The notes beneath the pieces are model-generated. The model was not told the origin of the DNA. It searched no databases and worked only from the letters and a program-made list of their open reading frames with translations. DNA of 64,000 nucleotides from Pomphorhynchus laevis. Taxonomy: Eukaryota; Acanthocephala; Palaeacanthocephala; Echinorhynchida; Pomphorhynchidae. The stretch is from positions 99,985 to 163,984 of the forward strand of contig WNNJ02001500.1 of the NCBI GenBank assembly GCA_012934845.2, in the 5' to 3' direction. The translations under genes were made by a program, and so were the position numbers. This document shows, one piece after another, positions 1,380 through 30,882 of this stretch; positions within the stretch are counted from its first letter, which is position 1, and each line of letters opens with the position of its first letter.

Positions 1380-3780
1380 TGCGTACTGCAACGAGTCCCT
1401 ACTACAAAGGTGTCTCTCATTCGCAAAACTATAGAGAGACGTCTAGCTTTATGGGAGAAAAAGAAGTACGACGCATTGTTCCATGAAGCGAAACACTTTA
1501 AGTTGGGACTAACTCATTACGTTCCCCTCGAGAAAACTGATTGAATAAGTCGTTATTGTAAAATTTTGACTGCAGGGAAAGTGGCCGCTTCCACATCAGT
1601 ACTAGACGATAAGTCATCATCCACAGTCCTGAGCCCAGACAAAAATGCGCACGGTAGATCAGTAAAATCATGGCTACACAATATCCATCTCTTCGCAAAA
1701 GTTCCACCACCAGAAATATTGTTATCGTCACAATTTCCTGGTTCAATAATGCATCACGCAAGCAGATTTTATGTTTTGGACGAAACTTGTATCATCTCCG
1801 CATGTGAACGAACTAAAGGTAGTGCAGGGCCCTCTGGACTTGTTCAACATTTTGGCAGAACATACTTACACGTTTTGGTTCACAGTCTCAAACTTTAGCA
1901 AAAGCTCTCACTCGCTTCGCGATTCGCATTGCTACCGAATCTGTACCAGCCAAAACGTTAGAAGCATTCACGTGTTGCCGTCTCATAGCCCTCAAAATGA
2001 AAGTGGGGGAATACGCCCAATCGGGGGTGTGCGACACTGCAAGAAGAATAATTAGTAAAGCGATTCTTATGTTTGTTCGCGACGACATTCAAGACGTCAC
2101 GGGAACAGTTCAAACAGCTACAGGGCAAAAGTGTGGGGCCGAATACGCGGTACACTCACTCCGAAAAACATATAACGCAAATCAAAAGGCCGCCTTCTCA
2201 CAATAGATGCAACAAACGCCTTCAATTCCGTAAACAGACAAGTCGCCCTCCACAACCTTGACCTTGTATGCCCGTTACTGTCATGCGTTATGCATAACCT
2301 ATATCAAGAGCCTACAACGCTCACTCTTGGTTTAGACTGCTTACTATCAGAAGAGGGATTTACCCAAGGCGACACTAGTAACAGAAGGACCAAAGTACGG
2401 TTACGTTGTCAATGCAGTGAAATCACAACTCTTATCTCACCATCCTCGGAGCATTGAGCAGCTCCCAACGACTGACATCAAGATTAGATGTGATGACATA
2501 CGTATTCTTGGATCCGCGGTAAGTTCCGTCGACTACGAAGCAGTTAATGTCGAGCAATATGTAGTTACTTTGCAAAATCTAATTAAACGTTTTGTCGACG
2601 TGGCGAAAATCGACCCACAAGTTGCATACTCGGGCTTGACACATGCAATACAAGCAAAATGGACCTATATCACACGGACTATCCAGTGTTACGAGGCGTA
2701 CCTAAGAACTTAAGGAGTGTTTTTCTCAATGAAATTACTTGATGGTCGATTGAAAATGGATAGAAAACGATACTGATGTCTCATCTAAAAATGGGCGGGT
2801 TGAGAATATTTGATACGGCACTAATTGCTCAAACAGACTACGAATCCTCAAAGACAATCAGTGCCACATAGGACTTCGATTTAATCGGATAAGCATTGAG
2901 AAACTTACAATCAAAAACGATCGATCAAATTACGGCGCGACGTAAAAACATTCATCATATAGGCTGTCAGAGGCACTTTACCTTATGGACACCGTTGTTC
3001 TGACACCTGTCAATCATGCTCAGAGAGACGGAGCATCTTCATGGCTCAGCGCTATCCCACTGAAAAACGAACCCTTTTGTATGTCATCAAGGGAGTTCAC
3101 ATATGCCATTTCCGCTCGCTATGGGCAAACCCCAAGTGACTTGATCGACAAATCATGCTCTTGTGGTGAACAAAATTACTGTGAGCCACGCACTCTCATG
3201 CAGATTGGGAGGATTACCGTCAATCAGACACGACTCCGTCCGATATGAAATTTAAAAAGAAATATCCACCATTTACCGTGATGTAGTAATAGAACCAAAC
3301 CTACTACCGGTCCCTGACACCCTAAAATTTGTCGCAACATTAACAAGTCGAGCTGCCGGGGCAAGGCTGGACATATCTTTTTTGGGTATGGGGAACGAGC
3401 GATTAAAGCAGACGTTCTTTGACGTCAACGTGTTTAACATCTTTGCTCAGTCGTTTGTCAACCGATCAGTGGACGCATCCTTCCAGCACAATGAATCACG
3501 CAAACACGCCAAATATTCAGAAAGAATTAAAGCGATCGATCGCAGCAGGTTCATTCCGCTAATTTTCTCCTCTTCTGGTTGCATTACGAAAGATACAGGC
3601 ACCTTGTTCAGACGAATCGCATCAGTTCGCACACAACGAGGTATTACGAAATATGCGCATGTCATCACAAACATCAAACGCCGCGTTTCCTTTGAAATTG
3701 CTCGAACAGCATATGCCTGCCTTCAAAGTCCAAGAGGAAACAGAGAAGGCAGCACATAAGATAGTGAACGCCTTGTTTTA
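1380..3780 (+). pseudogene. RT and REL-endonuclease region of LINE copy 1, broken
   Basis: The frame at 1,997-2,206 carries the finger/palm entry of the RT (ARRIISKAILMFVRDDIQ, then TGQKCGAEYAVHSLRK). The region 2,200-2,270 reads DATNAF-like motif A in shifted frames, and 2,350-2,375 reads EEGFTQGD (motif B). The next recognisable block, 2,385-2,710, starts directly at the thumb-side GPKYGYVVNAVKSQ, so the segment that should hold the catalytic A/DD box has been lost by deletion. The REL part follows at 2,985-3,248 (GASSWLS, then CSCGEQ with the downstream His/Cys disrupted) and 3,382-3,759 (FFDVNVFNIFAQS, KHAKYSERI, PLIFSSSG). At least five frameshifts are visible. The element ends near 3,780, where A/T-rich DNA begins. 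It cannot encode an active polymerase. Confidence 0.7.
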
Positions 3781-4172
3781 AAAATCAACTACAACTTTGA
3801 CAGTGAAAGTTATGTATGGACCATTTGCAGGAACCCCCTTGTAAATTATTATAATAACACAAAATTATAAAAAATATAACACCCTTATATTTTTAATAAA
3901 TATAATAGTGTAATATTTTTAATAAATATTCAAAGATTTTATTACATTTTAACATAAACTATAGTTTCGTGAATTGCAGAAACGCGAACCTTTTCTTGTA
4001 TAGAGATAAAAAATAAATATTTGCACCATTTACAGGCCCATTTGCGGGAATCATTTCTTGTATAGAGATTAAAAAATAAATATTAAAAATTATTTAGACC
4101 CTTTTGATAGCATTTTCCTCTTAATTCACCATCTTTATAAATTCCAGATTATGATCATTTATTTTATCAAAA
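3781..4172. other. AT-rich spacer with short internal duplication
   Basis: The stretch TTTCTTGTATAGAGAT plus following A-rich sequence occurs twice, at about 3,990 and 4,050. A short motif close to CCATTTGCGGGAA appears at about 3,820 and 4,037, and again at 17,773. No gene is seen. Confidence 0.5.
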
Positions 4173-4634
4173 TTAAGACTTTTGCAATTGCATTGTTTTT
4201 ATAATGTTTCTAATTTCATCGTTATATTTCGCTTCAAATTCTTTATTATAATTACAAAGTTTTCGTCCTAATGGCGGTAACACTTTATACCTTATTTTAG
4301 GAATATATTTACTTAAATCTGACCCTATTATTTCTTTACTTTTAGAATTATTTAAAAGTCTACCTATATTTATATTGTCTATACATTTATTAATGAAGTT
4401 TAGGGTTAGTGCATATTTTTTATTGTTATTATTAACATTTATTGTCCGATTATAGTATTTTATATTACAATAACTGTCTGTTATACAACTTAACTGGTCA
4501 TAATCGTTAATTAATTTTTGATTTATTGAACAAATGATATCTTTAGAAAAACTTCTCATATTTACATAAAGATCTTTTAGCTTATTATCTCTTAAAAGTT
4601 CTTTTAATATTTCTAATTGTTCACTTATATACAT
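4173..4634 (-). CDS. Pre-RT segment of a Penelope-like element
   Basis: This 153-aa frame lies directly downstream, in the same orientation, of the GIY-YIG nuclease frame at 4,655-5,050. It is Lys/Asn-rich, with a recognisable run of NFINKCIDNINIGRLLN, then YKVLPPLGRKLCNYNKE near residues 75-135. From memory of the family, PLE proteins with permuted domains have a segment of this form (a F-x-NK-x-D block, then Y...NYN) just before the reverse transcriptase. The frame stops at 4,173 without reaching RT motifs, so the element is truncated. The RT of a comparable element lies at 24,406-27,793. Confidence is moderate because the motif match was made by eye. Confidence 0.45.
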   Translation of the reverse strand: MYISEQLEILKELLRDNKLKDLYVNMRSFSKDIICSINQKLINDYDQLSCITDSYCNIKYYNRTINVNNNNKKYALTLNFINKCIDNINIGRLLNNSKSKEIIGSDLSKYIPKIRYKVLPPLGRKLCNYNKEFEAKYNDEIRNIIKTMQLQKS

Positions 4635-4654
4635 ATCTTTTTAAATATCTTTAA

Positions 4655-5190
4655 CTATACTTTCTTATTCCTTTTATCACCATGACTTCTTGGTTTGCGT
4701 TTAACCGGATTATTATAATATAGTTGTTTATTATGTATTATACTACTTCTGCCAATTCCTTGTACCACGTCATTCAATCCTAATGGGTACATGGAATTAA
4801 GCGTTTTAATCCAAAAATCTTCTTTTTCTAATAGTTTTTGATTTAATATTGAAATGTTTTCTTCGATAATATGTTCTAAAATAAATAATTTACAGTTTTT
4901 AATATCATGTCCTATTAATCTCATATGTTTATGAAATATAGTTTGACTATTATGCTGTATATTATATATGTGTTGCCTAAACCTAGTTTTTAACATTTGA
5001 TATGTTTTTCCTATATATTGCAATCCACATGTACATTGTATTAGATACACTACACCTGCGGTATTGCAGTTACAATTATTATAAATATTTAATGAAAAAC
5101 ATTTGTTTGTTCTATTACTTACAAAGCAATTATTATTTGAAACATCAAACTTTATTTTTTTTCTGTTACATTTATAAGATCTAAATTAAT
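4655..5190 (-). CDS. GIY-YIG endonuclease domain of a Penelope-like element
   Basis: GIY-YIG nucleases of PLEs nick target DNA to prime reverse transcription. The core is clear: VVYLIQCTCG (GIY strand), QYIGKT (YIG strand), then LKTRFRQH with the conserved Arg, followed by HMRLIGH and LEHIIEEN with candidate catalytic Glu residues. The Met-initiated frame spans 4,655-5,050, but the frame is open up to about 5,190 and includes a Cys-rich lead (CFVSNRTNKC, NNCNCN), so the true domain starts upstream of that Met. A zinc-binding CxC just before the GIY strand is typical of PLE nucleases. The following frame at 4,173-4,634 looks like the segment preceding an RT, so the nuclease may be N-terminal here and not C-terminal. 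No RT is attached, so this is a partial copy. Confidence 0.75.
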
Positions 5191-5330
5191 AAGTTATTAA
5201 AAAACGTGGGCTTTCTATGTTTCCGATCTTACGTGTTTTCAATCAATTAACTATAAAATATCATAAATTTAAAATATCATATGATAAAAATTATTTAAAA
5301 TATAGGATAAAAATATATTTTAAATTTTTT

Positions 5331-5422
5331 TTTAAAATATCATAAATTATTAATAACTATAACTAAAAAAATTAATGGAAATTAATTTAGTTATAGTTAT
5401 TAATAATTTATGATATTTTAAA
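5331..5422. repeat. Perfect AT-rich foldback hairpin
   Basis: An arm of about 35 bp (ATATCATAAATTATTAATAA and flanks, 5,331-5,367) is repeated as its exact reverse complement at about 5,386-5,422, separated by roughly 18 bp. It lies in the A/T-rich gap between the PLE fragment and the EF-hand gene. It could be a tiny foldback transposon, a 3'-end structure or chance in A/T-rich DNA; the arm length argues against chance. Confidence 0.8.
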
Positions 5423-5566
5423 ATATTTTTTTTTCGTTTATAGGAAAAAATTAGATATTTCGACTGTTACGGTTGATATCAACGAATTATCATAAAATCA
5501 CAAACAAAACGAATGCGAAAAATGTATTGGTTTTTAAATTATATACATACAATGGAAAATAACATT

Positions 5567-6238
5567 TTATTTATTTGATATCGGTTCATCACGTCGTTCA
5601 CAGAACAACAAATGTAAGCGTAGATCTATAAAACTTTCGGATATCGACACTTCTCTAAGAAATTCATCTTTATAAATGTTTTGTTCTTTATGCAAATCCA
5701 TATTCTTAACGACGGTCATGGTACTCCACTTGGCTCGTTTGCTATTTAAATACAGTCCATTTGCCGCATATAAAAATTTAATAACTTTTGGTAGACAATG
5801 CAATTCTAGAACGTCGTCCCCATTTTCGTCATACAGTTCAAAAATCATCTCAGCCATGTTTGAATACGTTTTCGCTCTCATTATTAAGAAAAACATAAAG
5901 AACTTTTTAAAATTGATATACGATCGATTTTTTTCTTTGAGTTCTTTAAATAAATACTTCATCGTATGCCGTTGATTATAAAAATAGTTGCTTTGATTAT
6001 TACCAATAAAGCAATCTTTATAATATTGCTTAAAGGCTGACCAAAAAAGAAAATTGTTGTTCGCATATTTGTTGTAAACGGCAAGCTGACTTTCCACTGT
6101 ACTTATATCAACATCATTTTGTACAGCAATCAGTCTTTTATCTGTATGGCTTGTTGATCTTCTATCACTCCGACTGTCTTGACTCCTCAGAAAACACTGT
6201 CTGCATTGACCCATCGGGTCATCACGCAATACCAACAA
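5567..6238 (-). CDS. EF-hand calcium-binding protein, neuronal calcium sensor/calcineurin-B-like
   Basis: This intact single-exon frame of 223 aa resembles the four-EF-hand sensors of the calmodulin superfamily. Residues 137-148 form an EF loop (DENGDDVLELHC) after the helix MIFELY; D137, N139, D141 and E145 are in liganding positions, but position 12 is Cys instead of Glu. Residues 181-192 (DLHKEQNIYKDE) form another loop, with D181, H183, E185, N187 and E192, followed by FLRE as in the last hand of recoverin-type proteins. The N-terminal half is more divergent and no clear hand is visible there. A second Met at residue 9 (codon at 6,214) begins MGQCRQC, a plausible lipid-anchored start, and may be the real N-terminus. 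The gene stands alone among transposons and keeps an open frame, so it is probably expressed. The exact family is uncertain. Confidence 0.6.
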   Translation of the reverse strand: MLVLRDDPMGQCRQCFLRSQDSRSDRRSTSHTDKRLIAVQNDVDISTVESQLAVYNKYANNNFLFWSAFKQYYKDCFIGNNQSNYFYNQRHTMKYLFKELKEKNRSYINFKKFFMFFLIMRAKTYSNMAEMIFELYDENGDDVLELHCLPKVIKFLYAANGLYLNSKRAKWSTMTVVKNMDLHKEQNIYKDEFLREVSISESFIDLRLHLLFCERRDEPISNK

Positions 6239-7486
6239 ATATTGACCTTAATATAGATCCGATTTCTTTCCTGTGTAATCAGTTGCTTGTCGATAAATTG
6301 TCGATAAAAGTCAGAAAATCATTACTGAATAGCGATAAGATAAAATATTATAAGTTTAAGACACCGGGGTAAGTTAACGCAAACGTAACTTAATCCTCTA
6401 TTAATTCTCCGTTTTTGTTAATCAAACACAAGCACATAAAAATGACCCTTAAGGTAAACCTCCTTAAATTTCGTGTCACGATGCTCATTTACGTTGCAGA
6501 TGCTCAAAAATTATATGTGTAGAGTGTAATTAAATAACAGTCGTTTTGATTACTACAAATATTATTACAGAAAACGATGAATACAACGTGATCGTTAGAC
6601 GAAATTAGTTAGAAAAAACGTAAAGTGGTTACTGGAAAATTAAAAAAAAGTATATGTGTCTATAAGAATTAGTATAATATTTTTCTGCTTAAATATAACT
6701 ATAAAATCATACACTTACAATAAAATAATTTAAAATACATAATTTTCGTAATTATAAAAATTAAAAATGTTAGAAAATTTTTATATTTTTGTTATATTGC
6801 ACGTAAATACATTTATTTTTGGTCACTGCATTTATTTAGAGAATTACCGGAATGTCTAAAAGTAAAAATATTTTTTCTAAGTTCAGTTTCTTAGCAATAA
6901 ATATGGATTGAAATCAATTGTAGGCAGCTTTGAATCCTGGGCGGCAGTGTCAAGAAATTTTTCCGATATGTTTTTACTATATCCACGGATCCTGTATGTA
7001 GACGGATTAGGCCATTTTTAATCGGTTATAATCTAGTTTTAAAAGCTTTATTGCTTCTTCACGAGTAAAACCTTTTTGATGGATTATCTTGTTTAGATCT
7101 ACCCTATTATCTGCTTGCATTAAAGGGTTGTTCATTTGCTCGTCAAGTTACGAGCCTTCAGTGCTCCAAATTATGCAAGGCTTCGAAGAATGTAGTGCAC
7201 ATCAATAGAGAATTTTAGAGAATATATCGAGTTTAATGACTAAACCAACTTTTAGAAAATGCGAAAATAAACCATGGAAGCTCTCCGATAATGAGAATCA
7301 TCTAAATTCTCGCATTTCTCTCTTTAAGTAATTTTCATATTTTCCTCGTTACGTTACGATCCAGATTTTGTGGATTTGTCATCAATCCAAATAAATTCAC
7401 TTATATCGTTAAATAGTCTTAAATAGTTAAATAGACAAATTAAATAGTCTTTCTATTGTCTTGCTCATTTTTGGACGTATTTTTTA
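6239..7486. other. Intergenic region with possible coding remnants
   Basis: Mostly A/T-rich. Two short minus-strand stretches read like protein: about 7,020-7,145 (DLNKIIHQKGFTREEAIKLL) and about 6,890-7,000 (GYSKNISEKFLDTAAQDSK, ending in a stop). I cannot join them with convincing splice sites and recognise no family. They could be exons of an unidentified gene or remnants of a retroelement. Confidence 0.3.
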
Positions 7487-8494
7487 TTGTTTTTTATTAG
7501 GTGCTTTATTTCCACGTGGTTGGAGATATGGTATTGTCAAAGTACTTTATATTATAAAGGTAAAAACAATCCAGAATCAGAAAACTCCTATCGTGAAATT
7601 ACATTTCTGAATCATTGCTATAAATTTTTAACACACGTTATTGCTTTCAGATTAATTCAACATTGTCATGATTCTCTCCCAGAAGAGCAGTATAGTTTTC
7701 GACCTAATAGATCAACGACATATGCAATAAACACTGCCAAACGACCTATAATAAACACATTTCAACAACATCGATCTATTTATGTTAGTTTTATTGATTT
7801 CCAAAAAGCTTTCGATTCAGTTGATTCGTGGTATCCAACGTCCTTAATTATTCACTATCTTCATTGCTGATCGTCGTATTATTTGCGGACGATCTTGCAA
7901 TTATCTCTAAATCTATTTCCAATGACCAAGTAGCTTTACACTCGTTCTCATCGTTCTGTTTTACTAATCGTATTCGAATGAATCGTGGAAAGTCTAAGAT
8001 AATTAAATTTCGTAGAGAAGGTCGACTAAGTCGATCTGACATTATATGCTGTCAAGACGCTCCGCTCGATTTTGAATCGAAATATCTGTATCTCGGAATG
8101 TTAATCACATCTAGATGGTCTTTTTCTCAACATTTTGAACTTAAATGTGAAAAATTGTGAAGGCAACATCTGGACTGTCCGAACTAGGCAAATTATCTTT
8201 TGAGGCTGGGTTACGATATTTTTATATAATGCTGTTTCCAAGACTACAATATGGACTAGCTTGTATCTGGGTAGACTTGACTTCAGAAAACTTTTACCAG
8301 TTAGATAAGTGCCTGTCAAGATTTATAAAAAGGTTGGTAGGCGACATCCAAAAGTTTCATCCACGGTTGTTCAAGTTCTAGCAAGGCTGCCTCCTTTATC
8401 AGTTTCATTGCAGAAAGAGATGAATCTTCCTTTGACTGATGGTTTTCTTAAAAATCTAAATTTATTCTACGGCCAAGTACTTAAACTTGATTAG
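7487..8494 (+). pseudogene. LINE reverse transcriptase fragment
   Basis: The frame at 7,487-7,870 reads QYSFRPNRSTTYAINTAKR, then VSFIDFQKAFDSVD (motif A). It is followed abruptly by VVLFADDLAIISKS (motif C) in another frame from about 7,866, so the sequence between motifs A and C, including motif B, has been deleted. Thumb-like sequence continues as SKYLYLGMLITSRWSFSQHFELKCEKL, and after a further shift as LPRLQYGLACIW-type residues (8,157-8,381). There is no endonuclease domain, so the copy is 5'-truncated. The clade cannot be assigned safely; it is not the same family as the 13,940 or 17,973 LINEs. It cannot encode an active enzyme. Confidence 0.65.
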
Positions 8495-23239: not shown

Positions 23240-24085
23240 AAGTGGATTGACATCACTTAATCGAGACGGATTATCGGTAGGAAGAATCGTGGCAAGGAGC
23301 GGGGGAAAGCTGAAACACCAGCATCAAGACGGACTTGAGGAGAAGATAAATGAGAGGCTCAACATTAGAGATGATAATACACCTAACGCGAGAAGGAAAT
23401 CGCTTACGTGCAAATGGAGGAATCACGGGAGTAGTCGGAAGTGGACCAAATACTCGAAGATCAGCAGGAACATACCAGGAGAGCAATAAAATTGTATAGA
23501 CCAGTGCAATGGGGTACAATATGAGATGTGGTTCGCTGACAAACTTATAGTTACAGGATTGAAATATGATATATTGTGACGATAAATACGCCGCGAGGAC
23601 GATGAAAGAAGGACATTTGAAGTGATTAAAGGTGACTGAGAAGACGGTGGAAAGATATATGGGAAAATAGATGACATTGACGTCAAATCTTCAGCTGAAT
23701 CAGGTGTTACTATCGGATCAAGTAGAGGTAATTGAATCGTAGACGTTGAAGTTTGTTAGATATAAGACAAATAAATTTTTCGTTTGTCATTTTATCTTAT
23801 ATGTCATTGCAGCTCGTTAATTAACATTTTCAAATATTTTACTAAAGTAGAAAGTGTTATGCAAGGCAACAGTAAATGAATAATAATCCTAAATAAACGA
23901 CAAGCTTATAAAACCGAGAATTGTAATCTTTCAATTCTTCATTTTGCCAATATTTATATTTATTCAAATTAATGACTTCTTTGAGAAAACTTTTTGATGT
24001 CAGGTTCTATCATAGTGACTCTTATAGTTTCACCTGGTCCTCTAAACGCTCATCTGTCAAATGTGCTCTCAGCTGTGCTCTCAGC
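23240..24085 (+). repeat. Dispersed repeat S, left copy
   Basis: This block is repeated in inverted orientation at about 28,925-29,510. Shared landmarks include GTGACTCTTATAGTTTCACC against its complement, CACCTGGTCCTCTAAACGCT, and the region around CGCTTACGT with GGAGGAATCACGG. Identity by eye is roughly 80% or more. One short frame, SLRKLFDVRFYHSDSYSFTW (about 23,975-24,035), is kept in both copies. No known domain is recognised. Confidence 0.65.
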
Positions 24086-24405: not shown

Positions 24406-25264
24406 ATGAAAATAACAAACAATTATAAAAGGAAAGATAAAATTAATAAAGATATGTATAAAGAACTTACTAAATTAAAGGATAACTATATAATAACAAC
24501 TATTGATAAAGCTAGTAATAACTTTGTCTTCATATGCAAAAAGCTTTATTATGATATACTAATGAAAGAGGTTAATTCTAATGATTTAAATGTAAATCCA
24601 ACATATGAACGTAGTGAGTTGAGTTTAGAAACAATTATTACAAGTCACTGTTCTATAATGGATAAAAAGGGTATAAAGGTTGAATTAGATAATAAAACTA
24701 TACCTATATTATATTGGAATCCAAAATTACATAAAAATCCAATAAAACCTAGGTTCATATGTAGTGCGTTTAAATGTACATTAAAACCACTTTCTGTCTA
24801 TATGAATAAAATACTTAAAGTAATTAAAGCACATTTTAAAAAATATTGCAAGGTAATCGAAATTAATACTGGTATAAAACACTATTTCAGTATTAATTCT
24901 ACAAAAGAATTTTTAGAACAGACAAAAGGAATAAATTTTCAAAATATAAATACATACGATTTTAGTACGCTTTATACAAATCTAGATTTAGTAGATATTA
25001 AAGAAGCGTTAGTAAAATTAATTAACCTTATATTCGGAAAAAGATATACATATATATGTTATAATAATTATAACGCCTATCTAACAAAAATTAAACCATC
25101 AAATAAATATAAATATATGGATAAAATTGAATTAATAGAATCCTTAAATATTTTGATAAATCAAAATTATTTAAAAGTAGGGACATCTATATTTAGACAA
25201 GTAAAAGGTGTTTCAATGGGTGGTAATAGTAGCCCAATTATAGCTGACTTGTTTTTAAGCTTTA
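24406..25264 (+). pseudogene. PLE reverse transcriptase, N-terminal part
   Basis: The reading frame carries YIITTIDKASNNFVFICKK (finger entry typical of PLE RTs), PILYWNPKLHKNP and PRFICSAFKCTLKPL, then NTYDFSTLYTNLD (motif A) and RQVKGVSMGGNSSPIIADLFLSF (motif B). PLE RTs are related to telomerase and copy the element RNA at exposed 3' ends. Codon use is very A/T-rich, like the flanking DNA, unlike the LINE ORFs. The frame is broken at 25,264 by the transposon. If the transposon and one TA are removed, the frame continues directly into the 27,253 block, so the insertion alone separates them; no other stop is seen in this half. Confidence 0.8.
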
Positions 25265-25274
25265 CAGAGGTTTT

Positions 25275-25450
25275 CATTATTATAGATCACTTTTCCCATT
25301 ATTATAGATCACTTTTCCCATTATTATAGATCACTTTTCCCATTATTATAGATCACTTTTCCCATTATTATAGATCATTTTTCCCATTATTATAGATCAC
25401 TTTTCTCATTATTATAGATCACTTTTCCCATTATTATAGATCACTTTTCT
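25275..25450 (+). repeat. 22-bp tandem array, left terminus of the transposon
   Basis: Eight consecutive units of CATTATTATAGATCAC plus TTTTCC. Unit 5 has T in place of C in GATCAC, and units 6 and 8 end TTTTCT. The array begins directly after the 10-bp outer end sequence. Confidence 0.95.
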
Positions 25451-25486
25451 CATTATTATTTTTATAGTTTAAAAAAATTACCCCAT

Positions 25487-26577
25487 ATGGAATTCCTTTT
25501 TGATCAAGAAAGTGATGAATTAGAAAAAGAAGATAATGAAAACTCAATACCCAACGAGGGCGATCTATTGGAAAGAAAGATAAAACAATCTATTACAAAG
25601 AATACAATAGAATGCTTTTTGGGTCTTCTAGGCAATAATTACAAAATAAAAGACATGGCCCCTGTGCTCAATCTTTCGATAGTTACTATAAGAAGGATAT
25701 ATAAAAGGTATCTTGCAGGGGATTACGTTGATTTATCAACATTTAAAACTGCTGGTCAAAAAAATCAGATACTAGAAAAGACCATAGTCATGAGAAAAAT
25801 ATTATAGCATCAGAACTTGCTCTAAACCCTTGTACGACACTAAAAGCAATGAGTGAGAAACTTTTGATACATAACCCCGTCGGTTGTTATTCAACATCTA
25901 AAGTATCACGCATAATCAAGGACATGGATTATTCAAGAAAGTCCTTGACTTTAATTCCTATTAATAGAAATAGTAATGAAAACAAAAACGTAAGAGCTCA
26001 GTATGCAGCCTCTTTATCTAATATTGATGACAATCAGCTTATTTTTTTAGATGAAACGGGTTTTAATTTACACACCTATCAGAATTATGGATACTCCCCA
26101 AAAAACACGAAATGTTACATCAATGTACCTAATGGTAAGGGAACGAATATATCTGTACTGTGTGCAATTACTAATCAAGGAATACTCGCATTTAAAGTCA
26201 AGGTGGGAAGTTTTAAGTCCGTTGATATGGTAGACTTCATTGATACGCAACTGCCACAGCTAAACCAAAATGAACGAAAATATATCGTTATGGACAATGC
26301 CTCCATACATAAAACAGCTACCGTGAAAGCATCTCTTGCTCGTCGTAATTATATTCATAAGCTTCTACCTCCCTATTCTCCTCAATTGAATCCGATAGAG
26401 GAATTTTTCTCGTCGTTCAAGTCAAGAGTCAAACAACAAAATACTTCTTCTAATAGTGAAGAGCTTATCGGTAAGATTAATAGTGTGCTTATAGAAGGAG
26501 AATTCAGGTTGGAGGGTTATTACAATCATATGCGTATTTGGGTTGAAAAGGCAGCTGCAAGAATTGATTTCATTTGA
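25487..26577 (+). pseudogene. Tc1/mariner-type DDE transposase (one frameshift)
   Basis: The enzyme cuts and rejoins transposon ends. The first frame (25,487-25,807) is the DNA-binding half: acidic N-terminus, then a helix-turn-helix (ECFLGLLGNNYKIKDMAPVL, SIVTIRRIYKRY). A one-base shift near 25,790-25,800 moves coding to the frame that yields 25,849-26,577. That frame has the catalytic domain: D68 in FLDETGF, D149 in VMDNASIH, and E184 in YSPQLNPIEEFF, with exactly 34 residues between the second and third, the Tc1-like DD34E spacing. The combined length of about 360 aa is normal. All three catalytic residues remain, so only the frameshift inactivates it. It is the only gene in the transposon. 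Confidence 0.88.
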
Positions 26578-26821
26578 AATAAACATTTTTTGTATTTTAA
26601 TAAACATAAAAAAAAACAAATAAAGTAATAAATAACACATACTATTACCTGTGATTAAAGTGAGCGTTCTATCTTGCGCAGTTTAGATTTGTGTTTATGG
26701 ATATATTATATTTGTTATCTAAAACTATAATAATATGTGTCGTAGTCTTCTAAAACCAAGATCACCATCATAATGCAATATTGCTCCTGATCCCTCCATC
26801 ACCTCATCTAGGGGTCATCAC

Positions 26822-26866
26822 CTTGCATCTAGGGGTCACATCTAGGATGTGACCCCTAGATGCAAG
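26822..26866. repeat. Perfect 20-bp hairpin inside the transposon
   Basis: CTTGCATCTAGGGGTCACAT (26,822-26,841) is followed by a 5-nt loop and then its exact reverse complement at 26,847-26,866. A partial third copy of the arm, CATCTAGGGGTCA, lies just upstream (about 26,806). It sits between the transposase stop and the right array. Function unknown. Confidence 0.9.
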
Positions 26867-27000
26867 ATACATAATAATAGACACTTTGATAATATGTATT
26901 AGTATGTTAAGCTAAATGTAAGGAATGTTATATTAAAATAATATCAATCATGATCATAATATCAATATATATGAGACATCTGTGCGACAAAATAATAATG

Positions 27001-27242
27001 GGAAAAGTGATCTATAATAATGAGAAAGGTGATCTATAATAATGGGAAAAGTGATCTATAATAATGAGAAAAGTGATCTATAATAATGGGAAAAGTGATC
27101 TATAATAATGAGAAAAGTGATCTATAATAATGGGAAAAATGATCTATAATAATGGGAAAAGTGATCTATAATAATGGGAAAAGTGATCTATAATAATGGG
27201 AAAAGTGATCTATAATAATGGGAAAAGTGATCTATAATAATG
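27001..27242 (-). repeat. 22-bp tandem array, right terminus of the transposon
   Basis: Eleven units of the reverse complement of the left array. Counted inward from the right end, the variant order matches the left array for eight units (four standard, one variant in GATCAC, then alternating end variants). Three extra units lie on the inner side. Confidence 0.95.
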
Positions 27243-27252
27243 AAAACCTCTG

Positions 27253-27793
27253 TATAGAATATGAATTTGTTCATAACTGTGTAAAAACTAAATCTAAACA
27301 ATATAAATATATGAAATATATGTTTCGATACATTGATGATATATGTGTATTTAATTCTAATAATTTTTATTCAATTAGTGAGCACATTTATCCAGAAAGC
27401 CTTATTCTTAACAAAACCAATATTAATGATAAAGAAGGTGTATATCTAGATATGAACATTAAATTAACATTAACTAAAACTACTATTAATTTATATCGTA
27501 AAGATGACATATTTAAATTTACAAGAAACATATTTTTGCATGAGCATTCATGCATACCATATAATATAAAATATAATACATTAAATAATGAAATTTTAAG
27601 AATTGCAACAATATGTAATGATATTGGCTTTCTTCAAAATCATTTAAATAATTTAATAGATACATATTTTAAACTAGGTTACTATAAAAATAACATCAAG
27701 CAGAAAATAGTAAAATATATAAATCAACACAATAATATAAAGAATAAATTTAAACTCTTAAGTGGCAAATTTTTATGGATGGATAATAAATAA
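27253..27793 (+). pseudogene. PLE reverse transcriptase, C-terminal part
   Basis: From the right TA the frame reads IEYEFVHNC, then MFRYIDDICVFN, which is motif C (YIDD) of a PLE RT. It goes on with YLDMNIKLTLTKT and the thumb-like IPYNIKYNTLNNEILRIATIC, ending LLSGKFLWMDNK before a stop. The alternative Met-started reading from 27,218 is only transposon array translated by chance. No GIY-YIG domain follows. In PLEs with the nuclease at the N-terminus the protein would end here, which fits the fragment at 4,173-5,190. Confidence 0.8.
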
Positions 27794-28169: not shown

Positions 28170-28935
28170 TTTAATTTGTTGAAAAGCAGCAAATCAGTCA
28201 GTACGCATGCTTACAAATGAAAAGGACGAAAATATTTAGTTAAATAACGTCTTATTCCTATTCTCAAATTTTGCATAACGGAAGGTATTAGTAAGATGCG
28301 TACGTGCTTATTAGGCTTTTAACCGAGGATAATCATATTTCGAGATATTTAATTTTTAATTTGTTTAGAAAAAATTTGGAATTGATTATGGAATGAATTA
28401 ATGACTAGAAGTCATTAAGTCATCATCTTCTAGTCTGGTAATTTTATTTAAATTTGGAAAATAATAGGGATGTTTAGTTAGATACCTCTTTTCAGGTTAT
28501 CAAATTTTGAATATTTAAAGGTATTAGTATGATACGTACTGCTTATTCGGATTTTAACCAAGGATAATCATTAATCACAATTTATTAAATAAAAATAAAA
28601 ATCTTTTAAAAACCACATTTCATAATCAAAACTTATAAAAGTTTGACAAAAACATTGTACCGTCTGATATTATCCCTGACATAATTATCAGATCGGTTTA
28701 AGACCAAATTTTAAGTTAAATTTAAATTTAAATTTTTTCTAAACAAATTAAAAATTAAATATCTCGAAATATGATTATCCTCGGTTAAAAGCCTAATAAG
28801 CACGTACGCATCTTACTAATACCTTCCGTTATGCAAAATTTGAGAATAGGAATAAGACGTTATTTAACTAAATATTTTCGTCCTTTTCATTTGTAAGCAT
28901 GCGTACTGACTGATTTGCTGCTTTTCAACAAATTA
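28170..28935. repeat. Inverted repeat (repeat R, paired copies)
   Basis: An arm at about 28,170-28,385 is repeated as its reverse complement at about 28,725-28,935, with a spacer of roughly 340 bp that itself holds a third, diverged direct copy (28,455-28,585). Landmarks are CAGTCAGTACGCATGCTTAC and its complement GTAAGCATGCGTACTGACTG. The arms look almost identical by eye. Confidence 0.8.
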
Positions 28936-29510
28936 CAGCTGAGAGCACATTTGACAGATGAGCGTTTAGAGGACCAGGTGAAACTATAAGAGCCACTATG
29001 ATAGAACCTGACATCAAAAAGTTTTCTCAAAGAAGCAAAATCAAAGAAGTCATTAATTTGAATAAATATTAGCAAAATGAAAAATTGAAAGATTACAATT
29101 CTCGGTTTTATAAGCTTGTCGTTTATCTAAGGATTATTATTCATTTACTGTTGCCTTGCATAACACTTCCTACTTTAGTAAAATATTTGAAAATGCAGAT
29201 TTGATGTCAACGTCCTTTCATCTGCCCATATATCTTTCCTCTATCTTCTCAGCCAGTTCCACCACTCCCAATGTCATTCTTACATCGTCATCGCGGCGTA
29301 TTTATCGTCCTAATATATCATATTCTAGTCTAGTGGCCATATCTTTCTCACCTAACAATACCTATCATTGTACCCCAGTGCACTCGTCTATATACTTTTA
29401 TCGCTCTTTTACTTCTGCTCATACTGATCTCCGAGTATTTGACCCTCTACTTCCGTGACTCCTCCATTTCTACGTAAGCGATTTTTTAATAAATTACTGA
29501 GCGGCAATGG
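28925..29510 (-). repeat. Dispersed repeat S, right inverted copy
   Basis: Inverted counterpart of 23,240-24,085. It directly continues the right arm of the R inverted repeat. Short plus-strand open frames here (29,156-29,458) show no domain and are not supported as genes. Confidence 0.65.
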
Positions 29511-30178: not shown

Positions 30179-30882
30179 TTACTTCAATAGCACGGGACCT
30201 GAAGAAAGTAGCCATGTCGGAACACTCCATCCAGTATAGGAACGGCGTTGGAATCTCATTAACCTTTCGTGATGAGTTTCTCCTGTTTGAGTACATAGGA
30301 GAAAACGAATTGATTGAAGTGCACTTGAAAGGGAACTTTCCCAATGCTCGATGGGCAGTCGACGAGTTCGAAGATCAAGTTTGATGCTTCTCCACAGAAT
30401 TCCGTTATATCCCTCCACCTGACCATTGCCAGTGGGGTTGTAAGGTGTGCTTCTGCTACAGGCAACACCGTTTCTGCATAAATAATCAGATAATTCGCGG
30501 GACATGAACGATGTTCCCCTATCGGAATGTACAAACGAGGGTGTACCGAATAGTGCGAATATCTGACTCAGACACTTTAGCACTGTTTTGGTCGACAAAT
30601 AGGGACAAGCGAAGCCAAATGGGAACCGCGAGAATTCGTCCACCATTACAAGCAAATAACGATTTCTAGAAGTTGATGACATGAGTACCTTAAAATCGAT
30701 TGATATTCTTTCAAATGGTTGCGTAACCTTAGAGAAATGGCAGTAGGACGATGGAATGACGGTCGAATTTTAGCACACACCGCACAGTCCCCCACTACGC
30801 GCTTAACTTCATCGGTCGAGAATGGCAGGTTGCATGAGCGGACAAAGTGTGCCAATCGTGTAATACCAGGATGACATAGGGT
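30179..30882 (-). pseudogene. Gypsy integrase (HHCC zinc finger and DDE core)
   Basis: The zinc-binding part reads HDTLCH (H-x4-H, about 30,865-30,882) and later CAVC (C-x2-C, about 30,765). The core follows after a frameshift near 30,700: SIDFKVLM supplies the first Asp, VHSDRGTSF the second, and GNGQVEGYNG the Glu, giving a complete DDE set. The Met-started frame 30,682-30,179 covers only the later part of the core. The enzyme would insert the element DNA. The frameshift between finger and core disables this copy. Confidence 0.75.

Follow-up and report, generated by a model that had tools for sequence, protein, structure and literature searches.

The region described here is a stretch of 64,000 nucleotides from the acanthocephalan Pomphorhynchus laevis (assembly GCA_012934845.2, contig WNNJ02001500.1, positions 99,985 to 163,984 of the forward strand), hereafter called the window, to which all coordinates refer. 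It carries a transposon of 1,988 bp (25265–27252), both ends of which are arrays of a 22-bp unit, flanked by TA at 25263–25264, matching the single TA of the empty target site, and, as read from the right flank, at 27253–27254. On the plus strand the element starts with the outer decamer CAGAGGTTTT (25265–25274), which together with the first 14 unit bases has 34 exact matches genome-wide, and continues with eight units of CATTATTATAGATCACTTTTCC (25275–25450, delimited by repeat analysis and unit reading), a leader of 36 bp by its coordinates (25451–25486) and the transposase. The latter is split in this copy over two plus-strand frames: an N-terminal part with the putative DNA-binding region (25487–25807), which has helices in the structure model of a relative described below and no Pfam domain above the cut-off, and a second part (25849–26577) with a second helical triad and a DDE_3 domain (6.9e-34) of DD34E spacing. 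Beyond a 3′ non-coding stretch (26578–27000, plus strand), assigned from the sequence and the list of open reading frames, 11 units in inverted orientation (27001–27242, minus strand), recognized by repeat analysis and by their match to the left arm, lead to the right decamer AAAACCTCTG (27243–27252, minus strand), which was recovered by the genome-wide search for ends. Over about 200 nt the two arms match each other as an inverted repeat. The first-pass annotation, made from the sequence alone, had described inverted arrays of eight and 11 units between two TA dinucleotides, and this was borne out by repeat and flank reading; its single DD34E transposase between the arrays held as to type but not as one open frame in the window copy. 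The 3′ non-coding stretch also contains, at 26797–26838, a short tandem and palindromic repeat of CTAGGGGTCA type, and an Rfam scan of the window gave nothing at gathering scores.

The element interrupts a plus-strand frame, the 5′ part of which occupies 24406–25262 and the 3′ part 27255–27793. Removal of the element with one TA makes this frame continuous. The joined 400-base flanks, used as a query, had 322 candidate places in the genome; the best 40 were scored and each was uninterrupted at 98–100%, 38 of them spanning all 400 bases and the other two bases 1–398 and 1–399. These matches are real empty sites of a high-copy repeat, so both the insertion inside the frame and the uninterrupted target that the first-pass annotation proposed to look for were found. 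The name given to the target is motif-based: from its motifs we take the repeat to be a Penelope-like reverse transcriptase, and the interrupted frame has no Pfam match above the cut-off.

Further copies of this kind, referred to as family A, were sought in the whole assembly (249,390,268 bases in 3,242 contigs) by means of an end pattern composed of the decamer and 14 unit bases with up to three mismatches. It gave 113 matches, 34 of them exact, versus one in the control; among those listed, matches with three mismatches were ends of a second family, B, except for one damaged family-A end. Twenty stretches picked for exact or one-mismatch ends, together with the window, contained 15 two-ended copies, all 15 with arrays on both sides and 12 with TA on both sides. 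Array length, the comparison of which had also been proposed, was 5–13 units in 29 arms and about 230 units in one, the right arm at contig C2422. Second copies with matching ends and with arrays are thus present, and none of the 15 was reduced to bare 10-bp ends; the end pattern itself holds unit bases, so array-less family-A ends could escape it. The unit dimer (up to three mismatches) occurs 484 times in the assembly, 124 in forward and 360 in reverse orientation, versus zero in the reversed control, and the 21 stretches contain exactly 124 and 360 of them, that is, all; their arrays either abut a family-A end or sit within a copy, partial copies included. All 14 listed contigs with family-A transposase matches (stretches of 96–100% identity) fall within the 21 contigs with array ends, and at two other family-A loci the transposase frame is open over 386 codons (363 amino acids from the first ATG). 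Since internal regions of 11 long copies are 97.8–100% identical in 55 pairwise comparisons, family A is young. At one locus (L040, contig C299) two right ends of family A, separated by 1,231 bp, share identical 25 bases of right flank, which suggests a tandem duplication after insertion; a family-B copy lies nearby.

The element belongs to the cut-and-paste transposons of the IS630-Tc1-mariner superfamily, as indicated by the TA duplication, the DDE_3 domain, the DD34E spacing and a structure model with Mos1 and Sleeping Beauty as nearest neighbours; the Tc1/mariner-type identity first assigned to it is thereby upheld. In the numbering of P0001, a relative from Dictyocoela muelleri, residues D189, D270 and E305 are invariant in the alignment, with 34 residues between the last two. 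The model of P0001 (45-row alignment, mean predicted local distance difference test score 86.5, predicted template modelling score 0.57) comprises two three-helix groups and an RNase H-like domain. Its best matches in the PDB are full-length chains of Mos1 complexes (E 1.8e-13), and catalytic domains of SETMAR, Mos1 and Sleeping Beauty match it at target-normalised template modelling scores of 0.65–0.77. In a PDB search by sequence only, Sleeping Beauty (E 0.0015) was the sole match better than E 0.1. Some observations fit this placement less well: the whole-chain score to Mos1 is only 0.41–0.45, Pfam helix-turn-helix matches stay below the cut-off, and three of the 15 two-ended copies (L042, L043 and L049) lack a clean TA on both sides. 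A GRPR-like motif between the helix groups is a mark of the Tc1 family proper. By eye it is absent from the P. laevis rows L049 and L068, which in this respect differ from transposases of Tc1/Tc3 type, and from P0001–P0006; GRP is present in the Cucumispora row P0048. A programmed frameshift between the N-terminal and catalytic parts, considered because several A and B copies share a break there, was dropped, since both families include copies with a single open frame.

Four more families, B to E, share the layout of family A, that is, a CAG-initial decamer, an array starting from base 11 and a 22-bp period, and differ in their units. Seven copies of B and two each of C, D and E were examined; in L067 (family D) and in L070 (family E) only one end is clean. 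Family-B ends are CAGAGTATTT, and the units of B, C, D and E are CATTATTATAGACCCCTTTTTG, CATTTTTATAGTCACCATTTTT, CATTTTTATAGACACCTTTTCT and CAGTTTTATAGGCAACTTTTTT, respectively, so that by eye 13 of the 22 positions are identical in all five consensus units. Identity to the transposase of B is 58% for D and for E, 65% for C and 54% for A, and among the matches listed no P. laevis copy outside family A exceeds 72% to family A. A similarity search of non-coding sequence of A against five loci of B–E gave one 46-bp match, to L069, outside that element. Arrays of family B reach 20 and 36 units in L066, and its unit dimer was counted 1,098 times in the assembly, irrespective of position, versus none in the control. 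Those of family C are short (about 3–6 units at the shortest) and less regular, with periods of 20–22 bp. Between array and ATG lies a leader of 28–42 bp, as counted by eye in single copies of A, B, D and E. Many further transposase relatives at 40–72% identity (at least 151 matches, with ends read for A–E only) are scattered over many contigs, some with open frames of more than 350 codons.

Phasing of the arrays is strict, as far as a script following shifts of up to two bases can register it. Of 448 unit steps in family A, roughly half of which come from the single long array, 445 measure exactly 22 bp, as do 169 of 175 steps in the seven copies of family B. In family A, where 29 arms were counted and the right arm at C2422 was excluded, the outermost unit is perfect throughout, and inner units vary as recurrent variants in a fixed order. 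In the window copy and in L051 the variants of the outer eight right-arm units come in the same order as those of the left arm, and units peculiar to the right side follow, so that one arm seems to have been copied from the other. Because both copies are nearly identical, this counts as a single event. In family B much of the inner variant order is also common to both arms. Two non-autonomous derivatives, L053 (856 bp) and L039 (1,480 bp), keep both arrays and TA and have left-type inner sequence on the right side. Since they lack inner sequence of the right end, the decamer and the array may be enough for movement, unless these derivatives were rearranged after insertion. The most extended array belongs to one family-A copy (L052, contig C2422, positions 2869–7928 there): it has 230 units over 5 kb, 229 of which represent four variants, and a search for a higher-order repeat in it gave no clear peak, agreement between units being 0.52–0.66 at lags 1–39.

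The anatomy of the element, its mobility, the layout common to five diverged families, the change in unit number and the similarity between arms are all directly observed, and one can propose how such ends may work. As a rule, a family-A end reads inwards as TA, a decamer beginning with CAG and then 5–13 phased 22-bp units, with a few tens of bases from array to transposase ATG on the left. Each unit would be bound by the N-terminal region of the transposase with its predicted two-part helix-turn-helix. As 22 bp make approximately two helical turns, an array could load several transposase molecules cooperatively on one face of the DNA and help to pair the ends, with only the outer decamer being cut. 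The array adjoins the ATG and therefore probably carries the promoter, for which leaders of 28–42 bp leave little room elsewhere; binding of transposase may then repress its own transcription. Through unequal exchange and copying from arm to arm the units would stay alike while changing in number, with an occasional runaway growth into a satellite like that at C2422. Array units are thus regarded as probably multiple transposase-binding sites, and this suggestion is strengthened by the retention of the 22-bp phase and unit core in five families while the rest of the sequence changes. The model as a whole, in which phased arrays serve as multiple binding sites and promoter in a lineage that moved sideways several times, seems to us fairly probable.

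Several observations weigh against a function for the entire array. Its length varies widely, not only from 5 to 13 units and up to about 230 in family A but also to 20 and 36 in one family-B copy and down to about 3–6 in family C, so that one end-proximal unit might suffice. Besides, the first unit of family B is perfect in only 11 of 14 arms. The variable length agrees with the idea that only the outer decamer and the first unit work, and that inner units are functionless by-products of slippage or unequal exchange; the perfect first unit and variable inner ones in the 29 family-A arms agree with it as well. Such a process would hardly explain why no arm of the 15 two-ended family-A copies has fewer than five units, why the 22-bp period outlived the change in unit sequence in five diverged families and why L053 and L039 retained both arrays. 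By-products are therefore rather unlikely in our estimation, though by no means negligible, and the arrays are further considered as probable binding sites.

The closest named relatives of these transposases come from another kingdom. D. muelleri is an intracellular microsporidian parasite of amphipods (gammarids), and Cucumispora is an amphipod microsporidian as well. Family A is identical to P0001 of D. muelleri, its nearest protein outside P. laevis, in 306 of 363 residues (84%), family B to P0161 in 106 of 140 (76%) and family C to P0157 in 110 of 125 (88%); family B is also close to P0003. P0001 and P0161 are annotated in the deposits as Tc3 transposase and P0157 as a hypothetical protein, and here the D. 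muelleri elements are known from proteins alone. Transposases of A, B and C thus match D. muelleri proteins better than one another. In a tree of 67 rows, restricted to this lineage and near relatives and picked from listed database matches rather than sampled in full, families A–E are represented by 10 P. laevis rows. These need five changes, all forced by the starred branches, and their union into a single clade is rejected (a cost of 335 log-likelihood units, approximately unbiased test p 3e-114). The distant P. laevis relative P0109 stands outside the tested group, and 10 D. muelleri rows, including P0157 and P0161, fill half or less of the columns. Cucumispora, Hydra and Thelohanellus contain more distant relatives. 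Given that D. muelleri matches surpass those between families and that the tree does not admit a single P. laevis clade, horizontal transfer has probably occurred repeatedly, the lineage apparently moving several times between the acanthocephalan and a microsporidian or the amphipod host common to both. According to the accessible parts of two reports, gammarids are infected by Dictyocoela microsporidia (PMC7659068) and parasitised by P. laevis (PMC7310846); the amphipod may itself be the source of transfer.

Two points speak against such a history: in the 67-row tree no D. muelleri protein stands close to family D or E, and the D. muelleri assembly, obtained from an intracellular parasite and represented by short contigs (596–17,030 bp in the rows listed), may hold amphipod DNA. 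Of these contigs, the ones with P0001, P0157 and P0161 measure 8.8, 17 and 3.8 kb, respectively. If one of the assemblies contained DNA of another organism, the likeness of P. laevis and Dictyocoela transposases would require no transfer at all. This is improbable, since family A occupies many contigs of the P. laevis assembly, most of the 21 being longer than 100 kb, and the D. muelleri proteins are numerous and diverged (84–88% at best), therefore not simple P. laevis contamination. Even if amphipod DNA encoded them, an exchange between amphipod and acanthocephalan would have to be assumed. More remote relatives, in viral and bacterial contigs, were scanned at 104 loci for arrays with a period of at least 12 and at least three copies. 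Eight tandem-repeat rows with other periods or sequence were found, which says little, since identity to these relatives is 22–46% in the best segment and those with a name are prokaryotic. In the literature searched on P. laevis and acanthocephalan transposons and on Dictyocoela, as far as its accessible text goes, there was no report of transposon transfer between acanthocephalans and microsporidia.

Arrays of this kind might also descend from a host satellite captured by the element, as was proposed for miDNA4, a Tc1/mariner-type miniature inverted-repeat transposable element of Xenopus (PMC12628747, accessible part). For family A this origin has very little probability: all 484 dimers lie in arrays of its copies, partial copies included, and related but differing units start at the same base 11 in five families. 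Most likely, to judge from this distribution and the common layout, the arrays belong to the transposon lineage itself. Long terminal inverted repeats (TIRs) with internal tandem repeats are, moreover, the structural sign of foldback elements (PMC4079207 and PMC3573991, in the text available), and the element displays this sign; an assignment to foldback elements of the Mutator or P superfamily is nevertheless refuted by its TA, rather than 8–10 bp, duplication and by a DDE_3/DD34E transposase whose closest folds include Mos1 and Sleeping Beauty, and retains practically no probability.

Elements of the inverted repeat/direct repeat type, such as those of Tc1/Tc3 and Sleeping Beauty type, have two spaced direct repeats per end and more than one transposase site there. 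Family A has the TA duplication, the CAG start and DD34E in common with them and differs in that at each end 5–13 phased units follow one another without gaps, rather than a spaced pair of sites. Outside the superfamily, the available portion of one account (PMC3688188) describes Galileo, a P-superfamily element of Drosophila, with long TIRs and internal tandem repeats, as in family A; its transposase domain binds the TIRs with further sites in their tandem repeats, which makes it the nearest experimentally supported precedent for arrays of binding sites. Galileo differs in its P-superfamily transposase with a THAP domain and in a gap of about 70 bp between its end and the most proximal binding site. 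In Tetris, a foldback element of Drosophila virilis, TIR tandem repeats also build longer satellite-like arrays; it has 220-bp repeats, a target-site duplication of 8–10 bp and, in the accessible description, no transposase found (PMC4079207). The Xenopus miDNA4 resembles family A in carrying a satellite as one monomer or a variable array; it is a miniature element, its repeat is thought captured, and paired end arrays are not described in the part of that source available (PMC12628747). Parisot et al. (2014, PMC4202319) reported diversity of Mariner/Tc1 elements in microsporidia, their horizontal exchange with animals and one group outside the classic families; repeat arrays are not mentioned in the accessible part of that account. 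No Tc1/mariner element with arrays as ends was found in the literature searched (titles and starts of abstracts, subscription journals being mostly outside), and neither “mariner” nor “satellite” occurs in the main text of the P. laevis genome paper. The present case places repeat-array ends within Tc1/mariner, such ends being already known from foldback elements of other superfamilies, namely Galileo and Tetris.

Since there are at least five parallel families, with open transposase frames among them, changes in site and transposase become directly comparable, and the array at C2422 offers a case of an element-borne repeat that reached satellite size in one copy. The relationships of the transposases suggest that transposons have passed more than once between an acanthocephalan and a microsporidian with the same intermediate host group, which is testable with public assemblies. 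More tentatively, and with somewhat less than even confidence, these families may constitute an undescribed branch of Tc1/mariner, whose ends would be variable phased arrays of loading sites acting also as promoter and operator, and which would circulate among unrelated parasites that meet in amphipods (acanthocephalan and microsporidian), retaining its layout while unit and transposase change together.

Some features of the surroundings may be mentioned. The right array supplies an ATG to the downstream half of the Penelope-like sequence, which opens as a frame inside the transposon (27218–27793). Long inverted repeats (23825–24076 and 28935–29195; segments of 101, 66 and 68 nt at 96–99%) bracket the interrupted Penelope-like sequence, and a further inverted pair of 206 nt at 100% lies downstream of it (28172–28377 and 28730–28935). 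Farther on, the minus strand carries a frame for a retroelement integrase (30179–30682, rve 1.6e-16).

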